Of a stretch of 64,000 nt of DNA, positions 21,501 through 45,500 are shown in pieces. The position numbers were made by a program, and so were the translations under genes. The notes beneath the pieces were generated by a model that saw only the letters and a program-made list of their open reading frames with translations, was not told where the DNA came from and searched no databases. Position 1 is the first letter of the stretch, and each line of letters starts with the position of its first letter. Source of the DNA: Nautilus pompilius (taxonomy: Eukaryota > Mollusca > Cephalopoda > Nautilida > Nautilidae); assembly GCA_018389105.1 (NCBI GenBank), contig JACATO010001736.1:124001-188000 (forward strand), given 5' to 3'.

Positions 21501-24500
21501 ATTTTAGTCCATCAGGGAATAAATGAAGATAGAATAGTTAAGATATTTAAATATGCGAATATAATATGAATGTTAACATTATAATTAATATATAAATAGG
21601 TGGTATTCTTTTGAAGAAAAATCTTTCAACGTAAGTTAAATTTTATTAATCCTATCAGAAATTATTAGTTATAATTTCAAATTTGTTTCAAGCTTTCTGG
21701 AAATTAATCTACCAAACCATCTCCGTTTTGTATGTAACGTTGGTAACAAAGTTGCCCTGTAAATTTTATTATGATAGTAACTAAGTAGTTTCCTAAAGAT
21801 AAATAAAATAGATAACTCCATTCCACTTCTGAAAAATTAAATAATGGTATATGTTTGATAGGTTATCAATAAGTAAAGATGACCAAAAGATTCACGATGA
21901 ATAAACTGCAGAAACTATGAACAAAAGAAGTTCTGTGACCTAATAATATACTTTCCGTAGAAGTTTTAAAAATGATTAGATCTGGATATGGTTTATGCAT
22001 CTTTCTTAATCTATGATATCTGTTTAGCAATTCTGTACATTTCCTAGTTCAATTTCAATTAGAACAACAAATATATTTTGGTAATGTAACTCATTTCCTT
22101 TTTGAAACAATAGGAAGACACCAAGGATGCAAGAGATGCTCAAAGTTTGCCTTCTGCTACAAGGGACTTTGCAGATGTAAGAAGGGATATTATGGCAACG
22201 GCTACCAATGCAGAAGTAGAATACTTAAATATAAATATTGTCATAATTTTTTCGAAACAACTTAATATTTCGACATCTCAAATATACGAAATTAAATAGA
22301 AATATCATTATAATTTGAATATAAAATAGTAAAATTGTTACACAGGAAGAATATTGAATTTATAATAGCGATAACATTTGCTAATTATAGCCAAAAAGAC
22401 TATTGGAAATCTAAAAAACGACGAATGACATTTTTTTCAAAAGCAATGTCGAAAAATAAAGAATTTTAAAGTGAATAAAATGCTAATGAAATCATAATTA
22501 TTATCGACAGTGTACAGTCAGTTATAACTAGGATATGAAATAAGAAATTTGAGATCATATTTGTCTTACACCCAAACAAAGGTGTGACTAGCGCTCGTAA
22601 TTCTTCTAAAATTAATCTTTTATTATTTTAATAAAAATGGAATTAATTTCAGAATAACTTTCTTCTGCAAAAACGATTATATATAACTAAATGATTGCAT
22701 ATAATTATCTTTAAATAATAAGACCATTAGGAAGCTGACTAAATGTAATGCAATTCTAAGATTCTAATATTTATAACATTGAAAATGTATTTGTAAAGTG
22801 TTACAACGTATTAAAAATTATATGGACAAGAAATTTCTCTTTACGATATTAATAAGATGGTTTCTGTTTATTAGTCCTTGAAATGTCTATGTCAGTATAA
22901 AGATTATTTGATTTTCGAGTAATGTTTAGATTTTGGACTGTTTTCTTTTGTTGCGAAATATATATGCAGTCTTTAGTCGAGGTAATGGCAGATGGCTTGG
23001 TAAATGTTAATGATCATATTAGTTTCAAATGAATAATGAATTTTCTAACTAATATTAATTTTTGTTTTTCGTTTGATGAAAAATCTTTTAAAGTGAGATA
23101 AATTTATTAATCCCAACAGTAATTATTATTCATAATTTCAAATTTGTTTCAAGCTTTCTGGAAATTAATCTACCAAACCATCTCCGTTTTGTATGTAACG
23201 TTGGTAACAAAGTTGCCCTGTAAATTTTATTATGATAGTAACTAAGTAGTTTCCTAAAGATAAATAAAATAGATAACTCCATTCCACTTCTGAAAAATTA
23301 AATAATGGTATATGTTTGATAGGTTATCAATAAGTAAAGATGACCAAAAGATTCACGATGAATAAACTTTAGAAACTATGAACAAAAGAAGTTCTGTGAC
23401 CTAATAATATACTTTCCGTAGAAGTTTTAAAAATTATTAGATCTGGGTATGGTTTATGCAGCTTTCTTAATCTATGATATCTGTATAGCAATTCTGTACA
23501 TTTCCTAGTTCAATTTGAATTAGAACAACAAAATATTTTGGTAATGTAACTCATTTCCTTTTTGAAACAATAGCAAGACACCAAGGATGCAAGAGATGCT
23601 CAAAGTTTGCCTTCTGCTACAAGGGACGTTGCAGATGTAAGAATGGATATTATGGCAACGGCTACCAATGCAGAAGTAAGATACTTAAATATAAATATTG
23701 TCATAATTTTTTGGAAACAACTTAATATTTCGTCATCTCACCTATACGAAATTAAATAGAAATATCATTACAATTTGAATAAAAAATAGTAAAATTGTTA
23801 CACAGGAAGAATATTGAATTTATAATAGCGATAACATTTGCTAATTATAGCCAAAAAGACTATTGGAAACCCAAAAAGCGATGAATGACATTTTTTTCAA
23901 CAGCAATGTCGAAAAATAAAGAATTTTAAAGTGAATAAAATACTAATGAACTCATAATTATTATCGACAGTGTACCGTCAGTTATAACTAGGATATGAAA
24001 TAAGAAATTTGAGATCATATTTGTCTTACACCCAAACAAAAACGTGACTAGCGCTCGTAATTCTTCTAAAATTAATCTTTTATTATTTTAATAAAAATGG
24101 AATTAATTTCAGAATAACTTTCTTCTGCAAAAACGATTATATATAACTAAATGATTGCATATAATTATCTTTAAATAATAAGACCATTAGGAAGCTGACT
24201 AAATTTAATGCAATTCTAAGATTCTAATATTTATTACATTGAAAATGTATTTGTAAAGTGTTACAACGTATTAAAAATTATATGGACAAGAAATTTCTCT
24301 TTACGATATTAATAAGATGGTTTCTGTTTATTTGTCCTTGAAATGTCTATGTCAGTATAAAGATTATTTGATTTTCGAGTAATGTTTAGATTTTGGACTG
24401 TTTTCTTTTGTTAGGAAATATATATGCAGTCTTTAGTCGAGGTAATAGTAGATGGCTTGGTAAATGTTAATGATCATATTAGTTTCAAATGAATAATGAT

Positions 24501-42500: not shown

Positions 42501-45500
42501 CTAGTTTTAATCTTTTCTTTTTTTACATAGGAGGAACATACCCAGGATGCAAGAGATGCTCCAAGTTTGCCTTCTGCTACAAGGGACGTTGCAGATGTAA
42601 GAATGGATATTATGGAAACGGCTACCAATGCAAAAGTAAGATGCTAAAACATGAAATAATTTCGGAATGCTGTTTTTCACAGCTGATAATATTTGCTTAT
42701 ATGCACTTCAATAAATTCTATTTCTTAAATGTTAATCTTTTAAGCATGGTAATTTCAGTGAAAAGGAAGGTTTGGAATCGACCTTGCCAATACCGATTAA
42801 GAAAGAATTGACAAACATCTGTTTTTAATAAAATGTTTAGTTATTTTGTTTTGTCTATATCACTAAAATGTAATGATTTATTCTTGGTGACTACATGTAG
42901 ATGAACACGTAATTGGCAGTCATTGTTTGCACTACACCTAGAATGTTACTATATAATTTAAATCTTTAATTAATATGCATTTGATGAAATTTAAATTAAC
43001 CTGGCTTTAGTTTTCAAAAACTAAATTAATTTCATAGATTTCTATCTAATTATTCTTTATTCTTATCTAACGTTAATACTAACCTGGATTATTTTTCATA
43101 AATTTTTTGTATAGCTTTCATAATCTATTCTTAAATTAATATAATTTTAAGGATTTATTCCTTTTTATCCTCGCTGTTGGTTTGATAAATTTTAAAATCT
43201 GTTAAAATTATTTTTTGATGAATTTTCAAAACATGCTATTAATATACTTATTTAATTTACTGTCATTGGTTTGGATCTCAGTATATTATTAGTTTGATTT
43301 CTGTGTGAACTGTTGATTTTTGGCTGTTTTCATAAGCATATTTATTTGATCCCTTTGATGAGCTATTCGTTGACTACCTGCCAATCCTTGCTAAAAATTA
43401 CTTTCTAATTAATTTCAGAATATTAGTATCCATCGTCTAAAATATTTTAATTTGACATAGTTTTCATTAATACCAACTGTTAATATTACAAATAGCAATT
43501 ATTTTATTAATGAAATAAAGTTATTCTCAAGTGATTATCTCAGACTTCTTTTGAAATGCTCTCGAGAAAATAGCAGTGCAACGGAATATGTCTATGCATC
43601 TGTCGCTATTAAGTAAGCTTCATAATTAATTCGCATATTATTTTAATAATTTTACTAATTATATATTTTTACTGTTGGAGACCTACCACTTGTAAGAGAT
43701 GTTCCATGTATACCTACTGCTATTATGGACGAAGCAGCAGTGAGTTTTGTAATCTTCAGTTAAAAATGGCCCACTTATTACTATTTGGATATTTAAAAAG
43801 AAACAAACAAGAAAATTTTTTCCCCTCGCAATAATGAAATCACATTGTGGGAGGATATACATGAAACCACAAAACCGTGACTGCTGCCGTTTGTTTTCCA
43901 TAATTATCACATTAATATCCATTTTCCATACAATTTATATTTTCAGTTTTTACTAGAGTAACAAGTAGTTTTCTCTTAATGAAACTTATCAAAATTTCTA
44001 CACAGGAAATGCGAAAATATGTGGGAATTGTTCCATGAATGGATATTGCTTCAGAGGACGATGCAGATGCAAGACTGGTTATTTGGGGAGCGGATTCGTA
44101 TGCAAACGTATGTCACTATACAAAGGAATCGTTCGATTTTATTGGTCAAATTTCATTATAGTTATGCATTTGATCATGATATTATTAAATAAAATTAACT
44201 GTAGGTTTTTTACGCCAAGCAGGTAAGTTTGAAATAAAGCGTAGGTTACAGAATTTACATGACAGATACCAGTGATGCGGAAAGGTTTCCATGGATACTG
44301 CTTCAGATTAAAAATGGCGAATACAATTTTACCACCGTGAACTTGTAGGATGAGAACGGAAATATGTTGAAGGGAAAACAAGTCAAATAGACACACAATC
44401 TTTAGTTAATTTGTACACTGGTATTCAGTTTAAATATGCCATCTTAGAATTTATTTTTATTTATATCCTATGAAAGATGAACTAAGTGCAGACCAGAATT
44501 TAGTTTTCCGTTTCATCTTCTCTTACCATCATATTGCCTCCCAACAGATGGTATTAGTTTGCTACACTTTTAATTTTTTTTTAAATCTCCATCAACCATT
44601 TTCATTAATTTGACCCACTGTTAATAAATGATCTTTGTACCACCTTCTGAATGATGCTATTGATTTGTTGTTCTTTTAAATAATTCTCTCTTGTTCGGTG
44701 TAGTTAATTTTTGTATAAATTAGTTTTCCCCGTGATCAGCTCTTCTTGGGCCGCCCTATTCAGTCGGGCATTCATCTGATAATTTTAAAATATTTTTGTA
44801 AGTAAATACAAGGAATGTACGTTTTTACTTTCTGACGTAGATTTAGAATTATGAAATCTTTGTATATAAATAAATTATTTAATTAAGATTTAGAGTTAAT
44901 ATTTTAGATAGATTATTCTTTTATTATTCTATTTGTTTTTGTATTATAAATGATTCACTTTTGATTTTTCTTTTTTTCTACATACAAGAATTGGATTTGT
45001 ATGGCCCCTCTTATATTACTTTGATTGCAGGATGCTTAATTTTGTTCCAGTTTAAGTCATATTTGTTTTTTAAAAAAATTAGATATAAACTGTTATGATT
45101 AATTTCCAGTGGTTATCAAATATCAGTATGCAATTATGTTAATCCTTTATTAGTCAACAATTTGTTAATGAAGTAGAAATGTTACTGAAAAAAAACAGTT
45201 TTTTCGTTGCGTCTAAGCATAGACGTTATTTATTTAATTGACAATTCAAGAGAAAACGGATAAGGAATTTGCATGCCACGGCACATGTTTTACTTTCAAA
45301 TGTAATCATCAGCTAATGATGATCATTATGTTTCTTTATGCTCACCAGCTAACAGGTAAACACATTTTTTGCTGAGTTCAAGTATGACGTGATATCACTC
45401 CAAGATTGTTGAGAGCACAAGCCGGCTGTTACAATTGCCTTTCATTTGCCCACGAGACCTGATATCGTAAATTATCTTAAAGTTTTAAATTTTAATTATG

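Follow-up and report, generated by a model that had tools for sequence, protein, structure and literature searches.

In the human LPA gene, the KIV-2 array consists of exon–intron tandem units of ~5,550 bp within a single gene, with exons that are 98–100% identical (PMC7613587). At least three unit types, many intronic differences, and ~40 alleles are described for this array, and the length of the encoded protein is given by unit number (PMC7613587). A second closely related layout is found in the MaSp2 silk genes of the spider Argiope, in which two homogenized intron types alternate and the core unit comprises two exons and two introns; in A. aurantia MaSp2.1a, a single intron type occupies the 5′ half, and alternation is found in the 3′ half (PMC9779670). 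The authors of that study were unaware, in 2022, of any other eukaryotic gene with two alternating homogenized intron types (PMC9779670), and, beyond Argiope, we met none in the covered parts of PMC1885213, PMC8584985, and PMC12954441, a survey that leaves subscription journals largely uncovered. In Nephila Flag and other silk genes, successive introns are nearly identical, which was read as intragenic homogenization (PMC1885213). Furthermore, a post-LRR exon type is duplicated within one gene in the Prunus Ma resistance gene (PMC6141779), and low gene conversion is described for tandem genes of corals (PMC10236652). Here, we describe an array from the cephalopod Nautilus pompilius, in which an EGF-like exon is repeated in tandem together with its intron. 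Tandem EGF-like repeats dominate two secreted mollusk proteins with a structural or adhesive role, namely the scallop byssal protein Sbp9 (49 repeats; PMC6244088) and the green mussel protein fp-2 (23 repeats; PMC7971044).

The window analyzed comprises 64,000 nt (C1658:124,001–188,000; positions are given in window numbering unless stated otherwise), and the assembly searched comprises 727.6 Mb in 2,558 contigs. Judged from its sequence, the locus is a real coding exon–intron array that follows a principle known from LPA KIV-2 and silk genes. We consider it rather likely that it represents a gene for a secreted EGF/VWD protein, whose central EGF exon was amplified together with its intron and is still being homogenized through unequal exchange, and whose protein length is set by unit number. 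The array resembles LPA KIV-2 in that exon–intron tandem units lie inside one gene; however, an LPA kringle is formed by two exons, the product is a plasma protein, and the polymorphism is established, whereas each unit described here carries one EGF exon and a length polymorphism would be putative. The arrangement of one intron type in the 5′ part and alternation in the 3′ part is the layout of A. aurantia MaSp2.1a, although Argiope MaSp2 combines silk repeats with small introns, while the Nautilus array combines a disulfide-rich module with 1.35-kb introns and contains ~2.5 alternating blocks. Nephila Flag, another silk gene, has one intron type instead of two classes, and Prunus Ma, a plant immune receptor with five diverged copies, shares the repetition of one exon type in one gene.

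Anatomy of the array

A direct-repeat search revealed repeat families with a start-to-start distance of ~1,460 bp that fill positions 21,610–42,640, and 15 exon copies on the plus strand, from 22,114–22,215 through 42,531–42,635, were identified by exon scan, blastn, and tblastn. The exons start at 22,114, 23,574, 25,034, 26,495, 27,957, 29,415, 30,879, and 32,341 (U01–U08) and at 33,798, 35,261, 36,704, 38,166, 39,617, 41,079, and 42,531 (U09–U15), i.e., 1,443–1,464 bp apart, which agrees with the ~21-kb array of fifteen ~1.46-kb units described in an earlier note on this DNA. Homology between units extends from ~21,590 to ~42,640, directly 3′ of U15, and repeats and unit alignment together delimit a tandem array of 15 units of 1.44–1.46 kb (21,590–42,640, plus strand). 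The array was absent from the output of Tandem Repeats Finder, a program limited to periods of up to 500. A DNA search with a whole unit, which skips common words, returned eight pieces, none of them in the array of the window.

All 15 exons are bordered by an AG acceptor and a GT donor. Thirteen exons measure 102 or 105 bp, the exceptions being U10 (101 bp) and U14 (104 bp), and six cysteines are encoded by 13 of the 15, the exceptions being U09 and, in the spliced frame, U10. Intact phase 1-1 EGF-like exons with six cysteines are thus found in 12 of 15 units; the earlier note had assigned a 102–105-bp phase 1-1 exon to each unit.

The individual units, all on the plus strand, were characterized by exon scan, alignment, intron classing, and gene model. 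U01 (22,114–22,215) is an edge unit with two amino-acid differences and the donor GTAGAA. It is followed by U02–U08 (23,574–32,442), seven exons that are identical across 102 bp and are separated by introns of one class (type I, see below); the introns leaving U02–U07 are 97.7–99.5% identical to the U05–U06 intron. The first half of U09 (33,798–33,902; 105 bp) is scrambled by insertions of +1 and +2. U10 (35,261–35,361) carries a 1-nt deletion and combines an exon of the U01–U09 kind with a subsequent type II intron. Two further exon types follow, of which the GTYPGC type comprises U11 (36,704–36,808), U13 (39,617–39,721), and the last array exon U15 (42,531–42,635), and the GSYPAC type comprises U12 (38,166–38,270) and U14 (41,079–41,182). 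U14 is one A short beside the donor, and this A is present in both exons of the same type on contig C2401, which holds a further version of the array.

Two intron classes and a repeated two-unit block

The array introns belong to two classes that are ~30% apart. From U01 to U14, nine type I introns are followed by the order II, I, II, I, II; under the cut-offs used, neither class accommodates the intron preceding U01 or the one following U15. Type I introns differ by up to 5.6%, and type II introns by no more than 0.5%, apart from the one following unit V04 on C2401. Alternating homogenized introns are present over the last five of the 14 array introns (35,362–42,530, plus strand, by intron classing and unit alignment) and not over the whole array. 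Within this zone, U11–U12 and U13–U14 form a repeated two-unit block with ~99.9% identity, U11 and U13 as well as U12 and U14 being ~0.1% apart.

Three class switches were inspected. The switch in U11/U13 lies within the exon (alignment columns 521–577, with the exon at 490–596), that in U12/U14 lies ~30–70 columns 5′ of the exon, and that in U10 lies ~18–30 columns 3′ of it. As a lead based on these few events, the exon, which is alike in both classes, may be the place of exchange between diverged units. Along with the signal-peptide and VWD ends of the gene and the second array described below, the intron classes and the two-unit block go beyond what the earlier note had reported.

Other versions of the array in the assembly

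The exon peptide matched at least 59 places on five contigs. Contig C2401 (14.6 kb) contains ten units (V01–V10), of which all except V04 keep the frame and the six cysteines, and its introns follow the order I, I, I, II, I, I, II, I, II. Among its type II introns, the first, located after V04, was called II at just 88.4% identity. V07–V10 are 99.9–100% identical to U11–U14, while V01–V06 reach at most 96.8% identity to any unit of the window. Two further contigs match the surroundings of the array: C2262 matches the left flank (135,544–145,859 in C1658 contig numbering) at 98.4% and ends in the first unit, 5′ of the U01 exon, and C285 matches the right end (181,944–199,423 in C1658 contig numbering) at 98.5%. 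C2262 and C285 would be consistent with a second haplotype in which C2401 is located between them; against this assignment, C2262 carries units of the second array upstream, where C1658 shows only a gene-copy remnant. In both cases, the assembly contains several versions of the array, with C2401 being an allele or a further tandem copy or paralog. For the possible length variation between individuals or species raised in the earlier note, this differently ordered, unanchored version is the nearest evidence.

Predicted gene and product

The array forms the middle of a predicted gene at 18,442–51,139 (plus strand), which comprises a signal peptide, an EGF exon, the array, three EGF exons, VWD, and a stop. 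The first coding exon (18,442–18,505) encodes the signal peptide (MRLLLLAAVVISMASRVRSSS), ends in a phase-1 donor, and recurs at 61,056 and on C2262. It surfaced under a loosened donor criterion, while a strict-donor scan gave none; its donor, read by eye, is GTCAGT. Exon scan and gene model further place an EGF-like exon with a tyrosine instead of the third cysteine upstream of the array (20,273–20,374) and a diverged EGF exon downstream of it (44,006–44,107). Two exons of the EGF_3 type (47,242–47,352 and 47,696–47,809) and the two exons of the VWD domain (47,940–48,193 and 49,645–49,970) were placed by the gene model and Pfam, the former pair also by the exon scan. A terminal exon, which completes R and adds CWAT and a stop, is tentatively proposed at 51,124–51,139 from frame and splice signal. 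An exon-like fragment with a stop lies at 45,565, and the intron separating the two VWD exons contains an ATA microsatellite of 56 copies (48,739–48,906).

When U10 and U14 are omitted, the exon–intron tandem units stand in one frame, as in LPA KIV-2, and the gene model is open for 809 codons with consistent splice phases. Splicing of the array exons would follow this model, and copy number would set protein length, as put forward in the earlier note, since the array exons fit one reading frame. The 809-residue model contains 13.2% Cys, 12.1% Gly, 12.1% Arg, 9.9% Lys, and 9.8% Tyr, and after removal of the first 18 residues, an isoelectric point of 9.74 was calculated for the predicted product. 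Pfam cut-offs (in brackets) were passed by EB with 36.4 bits (24.3), by EGF_3, just above the cut-off, with 29.3 bits (28.5), and by VWD with 97 bits (22.9). Matches to solved chains at E ≤ 1 were not obtained for the EGF repeat, and solved relatives of the VWD domain include FCGBP, mucins, and von Willebrand factor. Matches to the VWD exon were found at no fewer than 37 places in the genome, nine of them within 60 kb on C89; 6 kb examined on C800, the next best VWD match, contain one EGF exon near VWD.

It is plausible from these features that the gene encodes a secreted, strongly cationic, and cysteine-rich protein with a signal peptide, EGF-like modules, and one VWD domain. Such a product may act outside the cell in a structural or adhesive role, for which the EGF-repeat adhesives of scallop and mussel may serve as functional parallels. 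The likeness of Sbp9 and fp-2 to the gene is one of description, and Sbp9 differs by its CBD domains and its PCGGPC motif.

Divergence of exons and introns

Among U02–U08, none of the 102 exon columns vary, compared to 52 of the 1,342 other columns (Fisher p = 0.047, with columns taken as independent). The mean pairwise difference between U01–U09 is 1.1% for the exon and 2.2% for the rest of the unit, rising to 6.7% and 11.7% for U01–U14. Across all 15 units, it amounts to 6.8% for the exon and 15.4% for the rest, the latter being inflated by a non-array stretch 3′ of U15. The introns of U05–U07 differ by 0.3–0.7%, while U01 and U09 sit 2.3–5.0% from the other units of U01–U09. In the second array (array 2), as seen in the 10 units on C285, the exons are slightly more divergent than the introns (1.9% vs. 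0.87%). Ratios of nonsynonymous to synonymous substitution (dN/dS) of 0.27–0.39 were obtained for pairwise comparisons of the exon type U12_14 with the types U02_08, U11_13, and U15; several very close exon pairs showed either zero synonymous change or values up to 1.13, which carry little weight at 33 codons. The array-2 exon, being misaligned, was left out of these comparisons. On the youngest scale, homogenization thus rules exon and intron alike, and it is mainly at older divergences that exons are kept more than introns. The equal conservation of exon and intron stated in the earlier note holds for the former scale but not for the latter, as seen across U01–U14. Its proposal of one exon–intron DNA unit that was amplified and homogenized is supported.

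Neighboring gene copies and a second array

A next gene copy starts at 61,056–62,826 (plus strand) with a signal-peptide exon and an EGF exon (codons 62,728–62,826), and the array belonging to this copy (array 2) is located outside the window. In array 2, a different EGF exon was amplified with its intron, giving units of 1.51–1.55 kb, and its exon was found at six places on C1658 (before the contig end), ten on C285, three on C2262, and 22 on C1918. On C285, all ten exons are intact and introns are 0.2–2.2% apart; the first units of C1658 and C285 are 99.9% identical. Pieces of the array-2 intron share ~76% identity with a short stretch of the intron after U15 (43,458–43,544), which may point to an older relationship of the two arrays. 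In contig C1918, which is palindromic, 1,472–28,021 aligns to the reverse strand of the contig itself at 97.2%, with 602 gap positions. The turning points lie at ~14.7 kb and near 28 kb, the alignment of the arms contains many gaps, and the contig probably represents an unsplit hairpin-read artifact.

Upstream of the array, alignment identified a gene-copy remnant (4,968–6,183, plus strand), which comprises a fragment of the signal-peptide exon and intron 1 and, within ~50 bp of it, sequence otherwise located 3′ of the VWD, and which contains no array. Furthermore, a segmental duplication links 6,183–21,222 with 50,172–64,000 by nine matched pieces (82–97% identical, 42.4–44.1 kb offset); it includes the beginning of the next EGF gene as well as a GDSL-lipase-like piece on the minus strand, for which the Pfam match is weak (E 0.064). 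A long open frame at 242–1,357 (plus strand) contains 13 stretches matched by C2H2 zinc fingers. In the assembly, COX1 gave at least 117 matches over many contigs, many of them with in-frame stops and with partial coverage of the family, which likely reflects many nuclear copies of mitochondrial DNA. Three of these loci were translated, and in the best one the longest open stretch measures 299 aa with the mitochondrial tables 5, 9, and 13, compared to 168 and 169 aa with tables 1 and 2, which indicates a genetic code of the invertebrate type.

Mechanism and alternative explanations

Growth and homogenization of the array by unequal exchange are well supported by its anatomy. Units paired out of register would have recombined unequally and thereby multiplied the central EGF exon along with its intron, and homogenization by this route would be ongoing. 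Given phase 1-1 exons, units could be gained, lost, or skipped while the frame stays unbroken, and unit number would therefore set protein length in steps of 34–35 residues. This reading builds on features directly visible in the DNA, i.e., its anatomy and frame, the intron classes, the near-identical blocks, the neighboring array 2, and the C2401 version.

Several points weigh against a coding array of this kind. The gene model is a prediction from DNA, and when all exons are kept, the frame shifts at U10 and a stop is reached at residue 455. Indels occur in three of the 15 array exons, and in two cases the frame is lost if the exon is not skipped and the indel is not a consensus error. A typed concatenation of four array units served as the Pfam query for the EGF repeat, and EGF_TEN, which gave the best-scoring E-value, stayed below its cut-off (37.4 vs. 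65), as did EGF_2 and EGF_Teneurin for concatenated array peptides. The number of copies on the contig may also be wrong, depending on the assembly method. The VWD of this gene is single-copy among the matches found (next best 52% identity), one full match to the 3′ flank and no second complete locus were seen in a search that skips common words, and C2401 is not anchored to unique flanks and may be a paralog instead of an allele. Of the five inner C1658 units of array 2, one has its best match in the C285 unit at the corresponding position, two show a tie, and two are nearer to a different unit, by only 0.1–0.3%. This comparison, which covered nine of the ten C285 units, is weak, although exchange among the central units could produce such a pattern.

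Should the unit number be an assembly artifact, a few real units would have been expanded or misordered. The C1918 palindrome, which resembles an unsplit hairpin read, suggests that the assembly holds artifacts, and the 1-nt deletions in U10 and U14 and the ~99.9% identity of U11–U12 to U13–U14 point in the same direction. However, the array is flanked by non-array sequence within one contig, its units are distinguished by private changes, introns of two classes that are 30% apart are interleaved, and C2401, C285, and C2262 likewise carry such units in tandem, which leaves this explanation with little credence. Equally improbable in our view is a decaying, non-coding tandem repeat that holds an old exon. 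Such decay would be in line with the three damaged array exons and V04 of C2401, with the upstream EGF exon that lost a cysteine, the stop in the fragment at 45,565, and the remnant state of the copy at 4,968–6,183, and dN/dS of the closest exon pairs is uninformative or near 1. It is opposed by exons with intact frame and six cysteines in 12 of 15 array units and nine of ten C2401 units, by ten of ten intact exons on C285, by signal-peptide and VWD ends that are open and in phase, and by fewer differences at nonsynonymous sites between older exon types.

Regarding the intron classes, they could be a leftover of older recombination between two genes instead of an amplified two-unit block. The type II intron after V04, which is up to 14% diverged from the others, indicates that the classes are old, and C1658 holds only ~2.5 copies of the block. 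We nevertheless regard such a leftover as unlikely, though less so than the two preceding explanations: the two-unit block is duplicated at ~99.9% and recurs on C2401, and the alternation was therefore propagated as a unit. Going further than the amplification of a coding unit by unequal exchange, the locus could represent an independent origin of alternating homogenized introns in a gene unrelated to spider silk, captured while it shifts between arrays with two intron classes and with one. The exon, being under selection, would then supply the site at which exchange between out-of-register units restarts once the introns have diverged, and individuals would carry length variants. We consider this scenario possible, but lean slightly toward doubt.

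Significance

Exon–intron arrays, unlike repeats within one exon, keep a largely neutral record in their introns, which reveals the order and age of their copies. The Nautilus locus looks like a second case of alternating introns, found in another kind of protein and beside a second array of another exon. The role of intron structure in steering the homogenization of repeat proteins thereby becomes testable outside silk.

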